A stretch of DNA of 64,000 bases from Opitutia bacterium. GTDB lineage: Bacteria > Verrucomicrobiota > Verrucomicrobiia > Opitutales > Opitutaceae. Below are positions 40,052 to 42,582 of the stretch, piece after piece. Below the pieces are notes generated by a model. That model searched no databases and was not told the DNA's origin. It saw nothing but the letters and a program-made list of their open reading frames with translations. Every line of letters starts with the position of its first letter. Within the stretch, counting starts at the first letter, position 1. Both the position numbers and the translations under genes were made by a program. The stretch covers positions 62,001 to 126,000 of the forward strand of contig JACPIT010000013.1 of assembly GCA_016187945.1 (NCBI GenBank). Direction: 5' to 3'.

Positions 40052-41134
40052 TCACACCGCTTTCGCCGCCGGATAGCTGCCGAGCCACTTCACCAACGGG
40101 CACTGACGGCGCAGATCCGCGAGCGCCTTCTGCATCGCGGGCTCGTCGTAGTGACCGCTCACGTCGAGGAAGAAGATGTAATCCCACGGACGCAGCCGGC
40201 TCGGACGCGATTCGATGCGCGTGAGGTTCAGCTTGCGACGGTGGAACGGCGTCAGCGCCCGCAGCAACGCGCCGGGCTCGTGGTGCAGCGAGACGAGCAA
40301 GCTCGTCTTGTCGTGCCCGTGGCCGACAACGCCCGACGGCTCCCGGCCGAGAATGCCGAAGCGCGACGTGTTGTTCTTCTGATCCTGGATGCGCGAAGCG
40401 ACCGCCGGCACGCCGTAACGTTCGCCCGCCAGACGCGGGCCGACCGCCGCCGCGCCTTTTTCCTTCGCCGCGCGTTGCACGCCGAGCGCCGTGCTATCGA
40501 CGTCGACGAGTTGCGCGTGCGGGAGGTTGCGCTGCAGCCAGCGACGGCACTGCGCGAGCGCCTGATCCTTCGAGTAAACGCGTTGGATTTTTTCCAGCGG
40601 CTCGTGCGAGAGCAGCGTGTGCTCGATCTCGAGTTGCAGCTCGGCGACGATCTTCAGCGGCGTCTCGACGAACAGGTCGAGCGAGTCGCGCACGGAGCCC
40701 TCGGTGGAATTCTCGATCGGCACGACGCCGTAATCCGCTTCGCCCTTTTCGACGGCGGTGAACACGTCGGCGAGCGACGGCATCGGCCGGTAATCGACGC
40801 TCGCGCCGAACTTCTTCAGCGCGGCGGCGTGCGTGTTGGTCGCCTCGGGTCCGAGGTAGGCGATGACGAGCGGTTTTTCCAACGCGAGCGCCGCGGACAT
40901 GATCTCGCGGTAGATCGCCTGGAGCGCCGCGGGCTTGAGCACGCCGTCTTTGTTCGCCGCGGCGACGCGGCGCAGCACGTCGGCTTCGCGCTCGGCGACG
41001 TAGATGCGGCCCTTCGCGCCGTGTTTCAGTTCGCCGATTTTCTGGGCGCACTTCAGGCGCGCGTTGAGGAGCTTCACGACCTGCTGGTCGATCGTGTCGA
41101 TGCGCGTGCGGATGGCGGAGATGTCTTTTTTCAT
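40052..41134 (-). CDS. pheA: Bifunctional chorismate mutase/prephenate dehydratase
   Basis: 360 aa from the ATG at 41134. Chorismate mutase (AroQ) domain 1-85: KKDISAIRTRIDTIDQQVVKLLNARL with the catalytic GRIYVAEREADVL. Prephenate dehydratase domain about 90-270: IAYLGPEATNTHAAA, YGVVPIENSTEGSV and NNTSRFGILG. C-terminal ACT domain with GALLRALTPF and the Phe-binding ESRPS motif, so the enzyme is probably inhibited by phenylalanine. It makes phenylpyruvate from chorismate. It lies 81 bp downstream of DAHP synthase with no terminator between them, so both fall under the Phe-rich leader at 42401-42544. Confidence 0.96.
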   Translation of the reverse strand: MKKDISAIRTRIDTIDQQVVKLLNARLKCAQKIGELKHGAKGRIYVAEREADVLRRVAAANKDGVLKPAALQAIYREIMSAALALEKPLVIAYLGPEATNTHAAALKKFGASVDYRPMPSLADVFTAVEKGEADYGVVPIENSTEGSVRDSLDLFVETPLKIVAELQLEIEHTLLSHEPLEKIQRVYSKDQALAQCRRWLQRNLPHAQLVDVDSTALGVQRAAKEKGAAAVGPRLAGERYGVPAVASRIQDQKNNTSRFGILGREPSGVVGHGHDKTSLLVSLHHEPGALLRALTPFHRRKLNLTRIESRPSRLRPWDYIFFLDVSGHYDEPAMQKALADLRRQCPLVKWLGSYPAAKAV

Positions 41135-41215: not shown

Positions 41216-42271
41216 TTATGAACGGGCGACGGCGGATTGAGGACGGAGCGAAGCGTAAAGAGCGCGGCAGCGTTTGACCAGTTCGGCAAGCGCCGAGGGT
41301 GTCACGGCCTGTTTCGGGTCGTCGCCGATGCCGTGCGATGGACTCACGTGCGCCTCGATGCACAGACCGTCGCAGCCGTAAGCGACTGCGGCGAGCGACG
41401 CCGCGGGCACGTAGGAGGCCTTGCCGACCGAGTGCGACGGGTCGACCACGACCGGCGCCCAGGTTTTCTCTTTGAGCAGCGGCGTGATCGATTCGTCGGG
41501 CTGGTTGCGGTAACCCTCGAGACCCGGCTGCGTGCCGCGCGGGCAGAGCATGACATTCGGGTTGCCGAAGGCGGCGATGTATTCCGCGGCGGAGATGAAC
41601 TCCGCGAGCGGGCCGCTGTGGATGCTGCGCTTGAGCATCACGGAGGTCTGCGGGCGGCCGGCGATGGCGCGGCCGACCTGGCGGAGGAGCGAGTAATTGA
41701 GGGCGTTGCGCGCGCCGATCTGGAGCACATGCACGCCGGCATCGAGCGCGAGGTTGATGTGCTCGAGCTCCATGACCTCGGTGACGACGGGCAGGCCGGT
41801 GCGGCGCGAGGCGTCCATGAGGATTTCGAGCGAGCGCGCGTCGCCTTGGAAGCTGTAGGGATTCGTGCGCGGCTTCCACACGCCGCCGCGGAGGGCGTTG
41901 GCGCCGGCCTCCTTCACGGCCTGCGAGGTCTCGAGGTAGTAGTTCGGATTTTTCGGATCGATCGTGCACTGGCCGGCGATGATCAAGAGCTCTTCGCCGA
42001 GAGTGACGCCGCCGATTTTCAGGTGATGGTTCGCGAGGTCCGAGCGTCGATCCATCAGCTTGAACGGCGACTGGATGCGGTCGATGCGTTCGACGTAGTC
42101 GAGGCCCTCGAGGCGCGCGATCATCAGCTCGTCGCGCTCGTCGCCGACGATGGCGTAGATCGAGCGCACGGCGCCGATGATGGGCTGAATCTTGCAGTTG
42201 AACTCGCCGACGATGGTCGTGACTTCGCTAATCTGCTCGGGAGTGAGACGGTTGGCTTTGGGGAGGATCAT
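41216..42271 (-). CDS. aroF: 3-deoxy-7-phosphoheptulonate synthase, type I-beta with N-terminal regulatory domain
   Basis: 351 aa. The N-terminal 75 residues form a ferredoxin-like regulatory domain (QISEVTTIVGEFNCKIQPIIG), as in Thermotoga-type enzymes where it binds Tyr/Phe. The TIM-barrel domain has AGQCTIDPKNP (metal Cys), LRGGVWKPRTNPYSFQG (PEP contact), MLKRS and VVDPSHSVGK. It condenses PEP and erythrose-4-phosphate, the first step of aromatic amino-acid synthesis. It is the first gene of an operon with pheA and is preceded by a Phe-rich leader peptide, a terminator and a palindromic repeat. A second, unrelated-subtype isoenzyme is at 50697. Confidence 0.94.
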   Translation of the reverse strand: MILPKANRLTPEQISEVTTIVGEFNCKIQPIIGAVRSIYAIVGDERDELMIARLEGLDYVERIDRIQSPFKLMDRRSDLANHHLKIGGVTLGEELLIIAGQCTIDPKNPNYYLETSQAVKEAGANALRGGVWKPRTNPYSFQGDARSLEILMDASRRTGLPVVTEVMELEHINLALDAGVHVLQIGARNALNYSLLRQVGRAIAGRPQTSVMLKRSIHSGPLAEFISAAEYIAAFGNPNVMLCPRGTQPGLEGYRNQPDESITPLLKEKTWAPVVVDPSHSVGKASYVPAASLAAVAYGCDGLCIEAHVSPSHGIGDDPKQAVTPSALAELVKRCRALYASLRPQSAVARS

Positions 42272-42295: not shown

Positions 42296-42351
42296 GTGGA
42301 GGGCTCGGCTCCTGCCGAGCCGCGCGGCCCGGCAGGAGCCGGGCCCTCCAA
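42296..42351. repeat. Palindromic repeat pair in the DAHP synthase leader
   Basis: The left unit GTGGAGGGCTCGGCTCCTGC and the inverted unit TTGGAGGGCCCGGCTCCTGC show paired stem differences (CTCGG-CCGAG versus CCCGG-CCGGG). It separates the attenuator from the coding sequence. Confidence 0.8.
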
Positions 42352-42400: not shown

Positions 42401-42435
42401 AAAAACAAAAGAGCCGCCCGGGATTGGGCGGCTCT
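42401..42435 (-). terminator. Attenuator terminator upstream of aroF-pheA
   Basis: On the minus strand AGAGCCGCCC, loop AATCCC, GGGCGGCTCT forms a perfect 10-bp stem (42426-42435 with 42410-42419) followed by TTTGTTTTT. It starts 37 nt after the leader-peptide stop codon and 165 bp before the DAHP synthase start. The 5' arm can instead pair over 9 bp with TGGGCGGCT at 42475-42483, which overlaps the leader stop codon, giving an antiterminator that excludes the terminator. Confidence 0.9.
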
Positions 42436-42472
42436 GGTGCTTAAATCTGGTGAGTCAGTTTATGCTTCGGAG

Positions 42473-42544
42473 TCAGCCGCCCATGGTTCGCGGGGCAAAA
42501 AAGCCGGCGAACGCAAAAAAGAAATAGGCAAACGACTGAAGCAT
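42473..42544 (-). CDS. Phe-rich leader peptide of the aroF-pheA attenuator
   Basis: 23 codons from ATG 42544 to TGA 42473. Residues 5-16 are FAYFFFAFAGFF: seven Phe and one Tyr in twelve, much like E. coli PheL. The segment TGGGCGGCT over the last codons can pair with the 5' arm of the following terminator. In the classical model, ribosomes stalled at the Phe codons when charged tRNA-Phe is scarce leave this segment free, the antiterminator forms and aroF-pheA is transcribed. With ample Phe the ribosome reaches the stop codon, masks the segment and the terminator forms. The start lacks a Shine-Dalgarno sequence, as do nearly all genes here. Confidence 0.85.
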   Translation of the reverse strand: MLQSFAYFFFAFAGFFAPRTMGG

Positions 42545-42576
42545 GTGCGCAGAGGAGTGGCGGCGGGGGCGCGGAG

Positions 42577-42582
42577 TGTCAA
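42577..42582 (-). promoter_or_regulatory. Candidate -35 box of the aroF-pheA leader promoter
   Basis: TTGACA on the minus strand lies 32 nt upstream of the leader ATG. The hexamer at 17-nt spacing (CACTCC) is a poor -10 box, so the promoter call is weak. It falls between the stop of the upstream gene (42614) and the leader peptide, where a promoter is expected. Confidence 0.3.

Follow-up and report, generated by a model that had tools for sequence, protein, structure and literature searches.

Amino acid-dependent transcription attenuation of the Yanofsky type is a textbook mechanism, and the enterobacterial PheL leader shows its anatomy, with a short Phe-rich ORF, RNA segments pairing as 1:2, 2:3 and 3:4, a terminator, and pheA downstream. 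The papers found report leader-peptide attenuation from Proteobacteria and Actinobacteria, and some instances from Firmicutes and Acholeplasma. The ilvBNC and his leaders of Corynebacterium, as far as the available parts of their sources go, demonstrate amino acid attenuation outside the enterobacteria, but they belong to Actinobacteria and precede other operons. A predicted uORF with Phe codons followed by a terminator is described as the uORFC-13-1 motif of Acholeplasma aroF leaders, whose description includes a ribosome-binding site and one Phe residue or more and which comprises 24 examples from Acholeplasma and environmental sequence (PMC8632094). According to the available part of another report, the attenuated trpL transcript of Sinorhizobium meliloti starts with the ATG of the leader, its 5' end being given there (PMC7298713). 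No paper on leader-peptide attenuation in Verrucomicrobia, Opitutus or the PVC group was found in the literature searched, in which subscription journals are largely missing, and within these bounds the result agrees with an earlier note on this DNA, whose author knew of no such attenuator described in Verrucomicrobiota.

The window analysed here, a stretch of 64,000 nucleotides from an Opitutaceae genome, contains a leader peptide ORF, MLQSFAYFFFAFAGFFAPRTMGG, on the minus strand at 42473..42544 (ATG at 42544, TGA at 42475-42473). This short ORF is rich in codons of the cognate amino acid, seven of its 23 codons specifying Phe and one Tyr, and it lies before aroF-pheA; the residues 5-16 read FAYFFFAFAGFF, exactly where the earlier note had placed them. 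Counting both strands, the window contains 1528 ORFs of 8-45 codons, of which it is the only one with at least seven Phe in 12 residues, and none of the 71721 ORFs from 40 simulated windows with the dinucleotide make-up of the real one reaches this value. The genes following it had been named as DAHP synthase and chorismate mutase/prephenate dehydratase, in agreement with the Pfam matches. The first of them, aroF (41216..42271, minus strand), codes for a DAHP synthase with a ferredoxin-like domain (PF00793 and PF18152 above cut-offs; the best NCBIfam model, PRK08673, gives 278 bits and stays under its curated cut-off of 335), and the second, pheA (40052..41134, minus strand), for chorismate mutase/prephenate dehydratase with an ACT domain (PF01817, PF00800 and PF01842; NCBIfam PRK11898 above cut-off). 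Upstream of the leader, a DUF7674-like ORF and glgA are oriented in the same direction.

An intrinsic terminator (42401..42435, minus strand) separates the leader ORF from aroF, beginning 37 nt past the leader stop and consisting of a 3:4 hairpin at 42435-42410, with the 10-pair stem AGAGCCGCCC-AATCCC-GGGCGGCTCT, and the U-tract TTTGTTTTT at 42409-42401. The 10-bp hairpin reported before at this distance is therefore present, but its description as a GC stem needs correction, since it contains eight GC and two AU pairs. Segment 2, the antiterminator 5' strand TGGGCGGCT (42475..42483, minus strand), overlaps the end of the leader ORF and pairs over 9 bp with AGCCGCCCA of segment 3 (42425..42435, minus strand), which comprises the terminator 5' arm plus one loop base and is common to antiterminator and terminator; the last of these pairs involves the first loop base. 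The claim that the last leader codons and the terminator 5' arm form a mutually exclusive 9-bp pairing was borne out, as an equally good one arose in only 1 of 2000 candidate-strand shuffles. The combination of leader, terminator and antiterminator is real and goes far beyond chance.

Two further helices complete the picture. Segment 1, the 5' strand of a protector (1:2) stem, is situated in the first codons (42525..42544, minus strand) according to the minimum free energy fold, and an inner hairpin (TTCGC...GCGAA; 42487..42511, minus strand) surrounds the last aromatic codons, its stem being kept in relatives with other sequences. The RNA from 42580 to 42398 is predicted to fold with -66.2 kcal/mol (z -5.5) into the terminator and a 1:2 stem, in which the first codons pair with segment 2, an arrangement like that of a classical attenuator. 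A structured 5' region with a terminator might also represent a metabolite-binding riboswitch or a T-box, sensing Phe or uncharged tRNA directly, but an Rfam scan of the whole window yielded no family at gathering score, T-boxes are absent from the 15 weak Rfam matches of the leader region, and the structured part is almost wholly made up of the coding leader and the terminator, which leaves direct sensing with a negligible probability.

A 52-bp GC-rich palindromic repeat is present between terminator and aroF (42298-42349, minus strand), with 14 more matching rows at about 11 other places of the genome. The gap between leader and aroF is about 100 nt shorter in the two nearest relatives than in the window, so that the repeat seems to be a dispersed REP-like element which was inserted recently. 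This repeat (42349-42298), the 1:2 stem and a TTGACA box at 42582-42577 are additions to the earlier note.

Conservation was evaluated in 80 named genome loci coding for close AroF relatives, and 150 Opitutaceae genomes were searched in addition. A homologous leader with terminator and antiterminator precedes aroF in 30 of the 80 named loci, while 47 are without it (47 of 77 scorable ones) and three offer too little upstream sequence; the covariance model matches 31 of the 80, because L016, one of these three, shows the 3' part of the element at its contig edge. Together with the window's genome and four other Opitutaceae genomes, these 30 loci form a set of 35 leaders, obtained from 37 rows of an aromatic-ORF filter after L059 and L107 had been dropped by eye as being far upstream and without a terminator. 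Same-assembly duplicates among L092-L118 were left out by hand, and L236 is a repeat of L049, which belongs to the set of 35 but is omitted from the alignments A1 and A2 (n=34). For L038 and L063, the start was shifted by hand to an inner GTG by leader homology, which also brings the TTGACA box into register. Typical leader peptides of the relatives read MNRFAAYFYFGFAGYFTPQTGGGLS..., MNRFSAYYFSFAFRGYFTRKNQGGCREN and MLRSFAYYFFAFAGFFAPRIPGGCLEA. All nine alignment pairs of the terminator are formed in 28 of the 34 aligned leaders and eight of the nine in the other six; the antiterminator retains at least seven of eight pairs in 33 of 34, and the protector GCCGCC:GGCGGC at least five of six in 26 of 34. 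The inner hairpin recurs with the stems TTTGCGGG:CCCGCAAA, TTCCGGG:CCCGGAA, CTTCGGC:GCCGAAG and GGGCAT:ATGCCC, as known from per-sequence helices only, since register shifts between groups defeat column-wise counting.

The earlier note had asked for conservation of the Phe codons and of the alternative pairing in relatives, and both aromatic codons and antiterminator pairing are indeed kept, even behind a different upstream gene. A covarying antiterminator stem, which had also been hoped for, did not emerge: covariation within the Opitutaceae is no better than in shuffles and is uninformative there, because the helix hardly varies. The stronger argument for conservation is the positional and cross-family one, rather than covariation. 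Mapped on the aroF tree, the presence of the leader requires 7 changes versus 26.7 in shuffles (0 of 500 shuffles as low), which fits an old origin followed by several losses. Two loci from MAGs titled Acidobacteria (L053 and L062) carry an aroF that is nested among those of Opitutaceae in the tree and has no leader; either transfer or mislabelled bins may account for this placement.

The neighbourhood of these loci is relevant to another reading, that the hairpin merely terminates the upstream genes (the DUF7674-like ORF and glgA), a T-rich sequence having given rise to the Phe ORF by chance. Intrinsic terminators are frequent, and the upstream genes are indeed co-directional, but the unit stays before aroF despite differing upstream genes, and ORF, TTGACA and pairing are all conserved; together with the chance controls, this rules out a spurious ORF behind a plain terminator, to which we assign next to no probability. 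In 13 leader-bearing loci, an upstream gene with the C-terminus GTKRLFLHSLETSF... has its matched piece ending 213-379 nt before aroF, and in 39 leaderless named loci a gene of the same type ends 34-250 nt before aroF (within 144 nt in 35 of the 39). A gene piece with the C-terminus GTKRLFLHSLETSFDYEW... (e.g., in L046) is likewise found near aroF in most leaderless loci and farther away where the attenuator is present. The conserved piece MFLHSLETSFDYEW... of leaderless loci was considered as a second leader type and rejected, as it also ends a stretch farther upstream in leader-bearing loci; we take it to be the probable C-terminus of the neighbouring gene. Two examples of this C-terminal piece gave no Pfam match.

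The peptides themselves bear on whether the leader acts like TnaC, its nascent peptide arresting the ribosome on free Phe or another ligand independently of codon starvation. Such an arrest could explain why a non-aromatic Ala-Ala near the start and a Gly-Gly near the end recur in the main group; these residues, however, are encoded by segments 1 and 2 (GCCGCC and GGCGGC), and the peptides of genus g21 and of other families share mainly the aromatic richness, their remaining residues being different. In the g21 leaders, e.g., MSTFVYFYFSFWFGFNRTG, segment 2 is found just past the stop codon in five of six cases and not inside the ORF, which argues for a role as RNA and not as peptide; the 2:3 match is short in this genus and by itself not significant against shuffles in five of the six leaders. 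Peptide arrest is accordingly regarded as very unlikely, and stalling through codon starvation remains the preferred reading.

Beyond the named loci, a covariance model of the aroF leader element (R1) matched 50 of 252 Opitutaceae genomes at E <= 1.4e-11, many of these strong matches being training assemblies, and 141 of 252 at E <= 0.1, mostly weakly. In the 38 genomes compared (31 of the 50 with strong matches plus 7 with weaker ones chosen for adjoining aroF), the leader match lies directly before aroF and on its strand, with a distance of -2 to 195 nt between its end and the aroF match. Outside the Opitutaceae, R1 gave five weak matches (1.5e-4 to 9.8e-4, one of them L269) among 387 genomes of the phylum, and equally similar AroF genes occur only in Opitutaceae among the matches listed (106 genomes, to E 1e-60). 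More distant aroF genes of other families (37-43% identical) were viewed in 13 loci, taken from 14 among the matches listed, and four of these contain aromatic leaders (L250, L251, L252 and L256); an aromatic-rich ORF in L261 (6/12) was excluded for its distance of 616 nt from aroF. The 2:3 pairing was equalled in 3 of 2000 shuffles for L250 and in 21 of 2000 for L251; one of these leaders from other families, MTGTAERFFNFYFYYFAFQKRGSSAAA, retains the pairing through different strands, GCGGGGGTC:GATCCCCGC (3 of 2000 shuffles). The pairing of L256 is weak (231 of 2000 shuffles as good), and no 2:3 pairing was found in L252.

A perfect TTGACA is located at -36 to -41 from the leader ATG or GTG in 42 of 43 leaders examined, with a chance of about 0.002 per 20-nt stretch of equal composition in shuffles; in the remaining one, L234, it precedes the assigned start by about 104 nt. 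In the window, this predicted -35 box occupies 42577..42582 (minus strand), 38 nt before the leader ATG, and is followed after 17 nt by a weak predicted -10 region, CACTCCT (42553..42559, minus strand). At the same spacing, the columns C-A-N4-T are conserved in 33, 31 and 31 of 34 leaders and differ from the sigma-70 consensus, and a scan for sigma-70 consensus promoters found none at the leader. The TTGACA is placed as a -35 box would be for transcription starting at the start codon, which predicts a leaderless or nearly leaderless mRNA. Given the non-consensus -10 region and the result of the scan, we infer this start from the position of the box, and consider a leaderless mRNA beginning with the leader start codon probable. 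A Shine-Dalgarno match of 4 nt precedes 3 of 42 leaders, and longer ones precede none; aroF starts are equally poor (4 nt in 5 of 110), so that the missing Shine-Dalgarno sequences are no special trait of the leaders. In L251, from another family, TTGACA is combined with a TATATT box, and the leader ORF seems to be preceded by an untranslated 5' region; the leaderless layout may therefore be specific to Opitutaceae. As a separate observation, a TATGAC/GTCATA motif occurs 19-28 nt upstream of TTGACA in 15 of 42 aroF leaders (42609-42603 in the window), a number inflated by closely related loci, with 0.23 expected by shuffle. It is also found before several ilvD leaders and before the leader-like ORFs L149-L151 described below, possibly as a shared upstream control site.

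The choice of codons in the leaders favours RNA structure: compared with 200 synonymous recodings of each leader ORF, 34 of the 35 show better folding than the average recoding (mean z -1.79; 28 below -1). They also prefer TTT over TTC (119:60, versus 37:178 in the aroF genes behind them), and it may be guessed that this preference serves slow decoding or low pairing. Phe accounts for 19.7% and Tyr for 8.1% of the residues in the 35 leaders. To describe the switch, a ribosome footprint was masked at each codon in 34 loci, and the pairing was computed for RNA in which segment 4 is not yet present. A ribosome placed on aromatic codons gives a mean p(2:3) of 0.94, whereas one placed at the stop codon gives 0.07, together with a mean p(3:4) of 1.0. 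In the window leader, p(2:3) amounts to 0.99 for the aromatic codons from 5 to 12, to 0.39 at codon 15 and 0.81 at codon 16, and to 0.00 once the ribosome is at the stop. Computationally, the 9-bp pairing together with this model yields an antiterminator that excludes the terminator and is masked by a ribosome at the stop. Higher values of p(2:3) with the ribosome at the stop were obtained for L031 (0.52), L054 (0.93) and L073 (0.44), in which the stop lies well past segment 2. Without any ribosome, p(2:3) has a mean of 0.85 across relatives and amounts to 0.64 in the window; the antiterminator intermediate thus forms in most relatives, and the model, simple as it is, makes the protector stem appear weak. 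At full length and without a ribosome, p(3:4) has a mean of 0.96, the terminator being favoured at equilibrium, and read-through must therefore be kinetic. A kinetic switch is also the usual view of known attenuators.

Taken together, the aroF-pheA operon is very probably controlled by a ribosome-mediated transcription attenuator. Its ORF, terminator and exclusive pairing, their conservation and the structure-favouring codon choice can be read from the sequence, and from them we infer the course of transcription start, translation, stalling, termination and Phe response. Transcription would begin at the leader start codon or no more than a few bases away from it, and a ribosome would follow RNA polymerase while translating the Phe/Tyr-rich peptide. 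With ample charged tRNA-Phe, and probably tRNA-Tyr as well, the ribosome would proceed to the stop codon and cover segment 2 (TGGGCGGCT), allowing segments 3 and 4 to pair and transcription to terminate near 42401. If charged tRNA is scarce, the ribosome would stall on the aromatic run and keep the 1:2 stem open, and segment 2 could capture segment 3 before segment 4 is made, leading to read-through into aroF and pheA. The earlier proposal of ribosome-mediated attenuation is supported by the conserved codons and pairing, whereas charged tRNA-Phe as the lone signal may be too narrow, as Tyr codons are also frequent. The attenuator might in addition release a product acting in trans, either the terminated RNA or the leader peptide, in the manner of rnTrpL/peTrpL of S. 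meliloti. Termination would yield a short mRNA of about 140 nt with almost no 5' leader, similar to rnTrpL, whose 5' end is the trpL ATG (PMC7298713), but the peptide varies widely among relatives, and such an additional function appears unlikely, leaving control in cis as the favoured reading.

Further leaders are found in the same genome. An Ile/Val/Leu-rich leader, MTSSIKLPLHFIAALIIAVVILLTPSTGRLSHN (L163; G000:C12:312997-313137, minus strand), precedes a gene identified as ilvD by NCBIfam TIGR00110 above cut-off, whose frame has no ATG near the expected start; GGGCGGCTTT of this leader faces the terminator arm AAGGCCGCCC. Weaker R1 matches led to this leader and to similar ones in 14 fetched relatives. 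The TTGAC boxes of the ilvD leaders precede the start by 41-51 nt, with 50 nt in the case of the window's genome, and these transcripts would therefore have short 5' leaders instead of none. A five-His leader, MIRNHHHHHAS (L171; G000:C9), ends about 200 nt before hisG (289014) and is followed by hairpins and a terminator-like stretch before that gene. By an H-rich filter, His leaders were detected in 4 of 30 Opitutaceae hisG loci; no good TTGACA was found before the hisG leader, the best agreeing in four of six positions. Applied to about 1.5 kb next to trpE, a W-rich filter gave no Trp leader in 30 loci, which exclude the window genome's own trpE with its single weak match. Another leader-like ORF of about 30 codons is present at G000:C8:476909-477075 and in two same-genus genomes (L149-L151). 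It reads MIQVVAKVSMNLTPWYATSKAILRELTGAL in the window's genome, has a GGCCGCC terminator but no clear codon run, and precedes a conserved ORF of about 107 amino acids without an NCBIfam match.

These observations incline us, with some reserve, to the view that Verrucomicrobiota run a set of leader-peptide attenuators, for at least aroF-pheA, ilvD and hisG, with an origin apart from those of Proteobacteria, the aroF member of Opitutaceae being leaderless behind a near-invariant TTGACA and the ilvD member having a similar box at a distance of 41-51 nt from its start. If this is true, attenuation would be an old or repeatedly invented amino acid control in the phylum, operating without Shine-Dalgarno initiation, and a conserved case with several operons in Verrucomicrobiota would widen the known range of leader-peptide attenuation. 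It would raise the question of whether attenuation can proceed on mRNAs without Shine-Dalgarno sequences, where initiation would have to follow promoter escape at once. The series of leaders with segment 2 inside or outside the ORF would let the role of the RNA be told from that of the peptide, and the covariance model may help annotators with a class of small genes that have been overlooked.

The closest published case identified, uORFC-13-1, resembles the window leader by its description as a Phe uORF before aroF (PMC8632094). The S. meliloti trpL leader belongs to a Trp operon of Alphaproteobacteria, and its reported 5' end differs in kind from the start proposed for the window, which is derived from the distance of TTGACA (PMC7298713). 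Against the enterobacterial Phe_leader family RF01859, the window leader scores 24.8 bits versus a gathering threshold of 55, aligning mainly at the terminator, and is thus not a member; identity with a known Rfam family was rejected because the scores stay below gathering. In its layout, the window leader resembles enterobacterial PheL by the Phe-rich ORF, the three segment pairings, a similarly shaped terminator and pheA downstream, but differs from it in having aroF as the first gene of the operon and a leader mRNA predicted to be leaderless. The mechanism itself is that of the textbooks, while the phylum and the leaderless layout look new.
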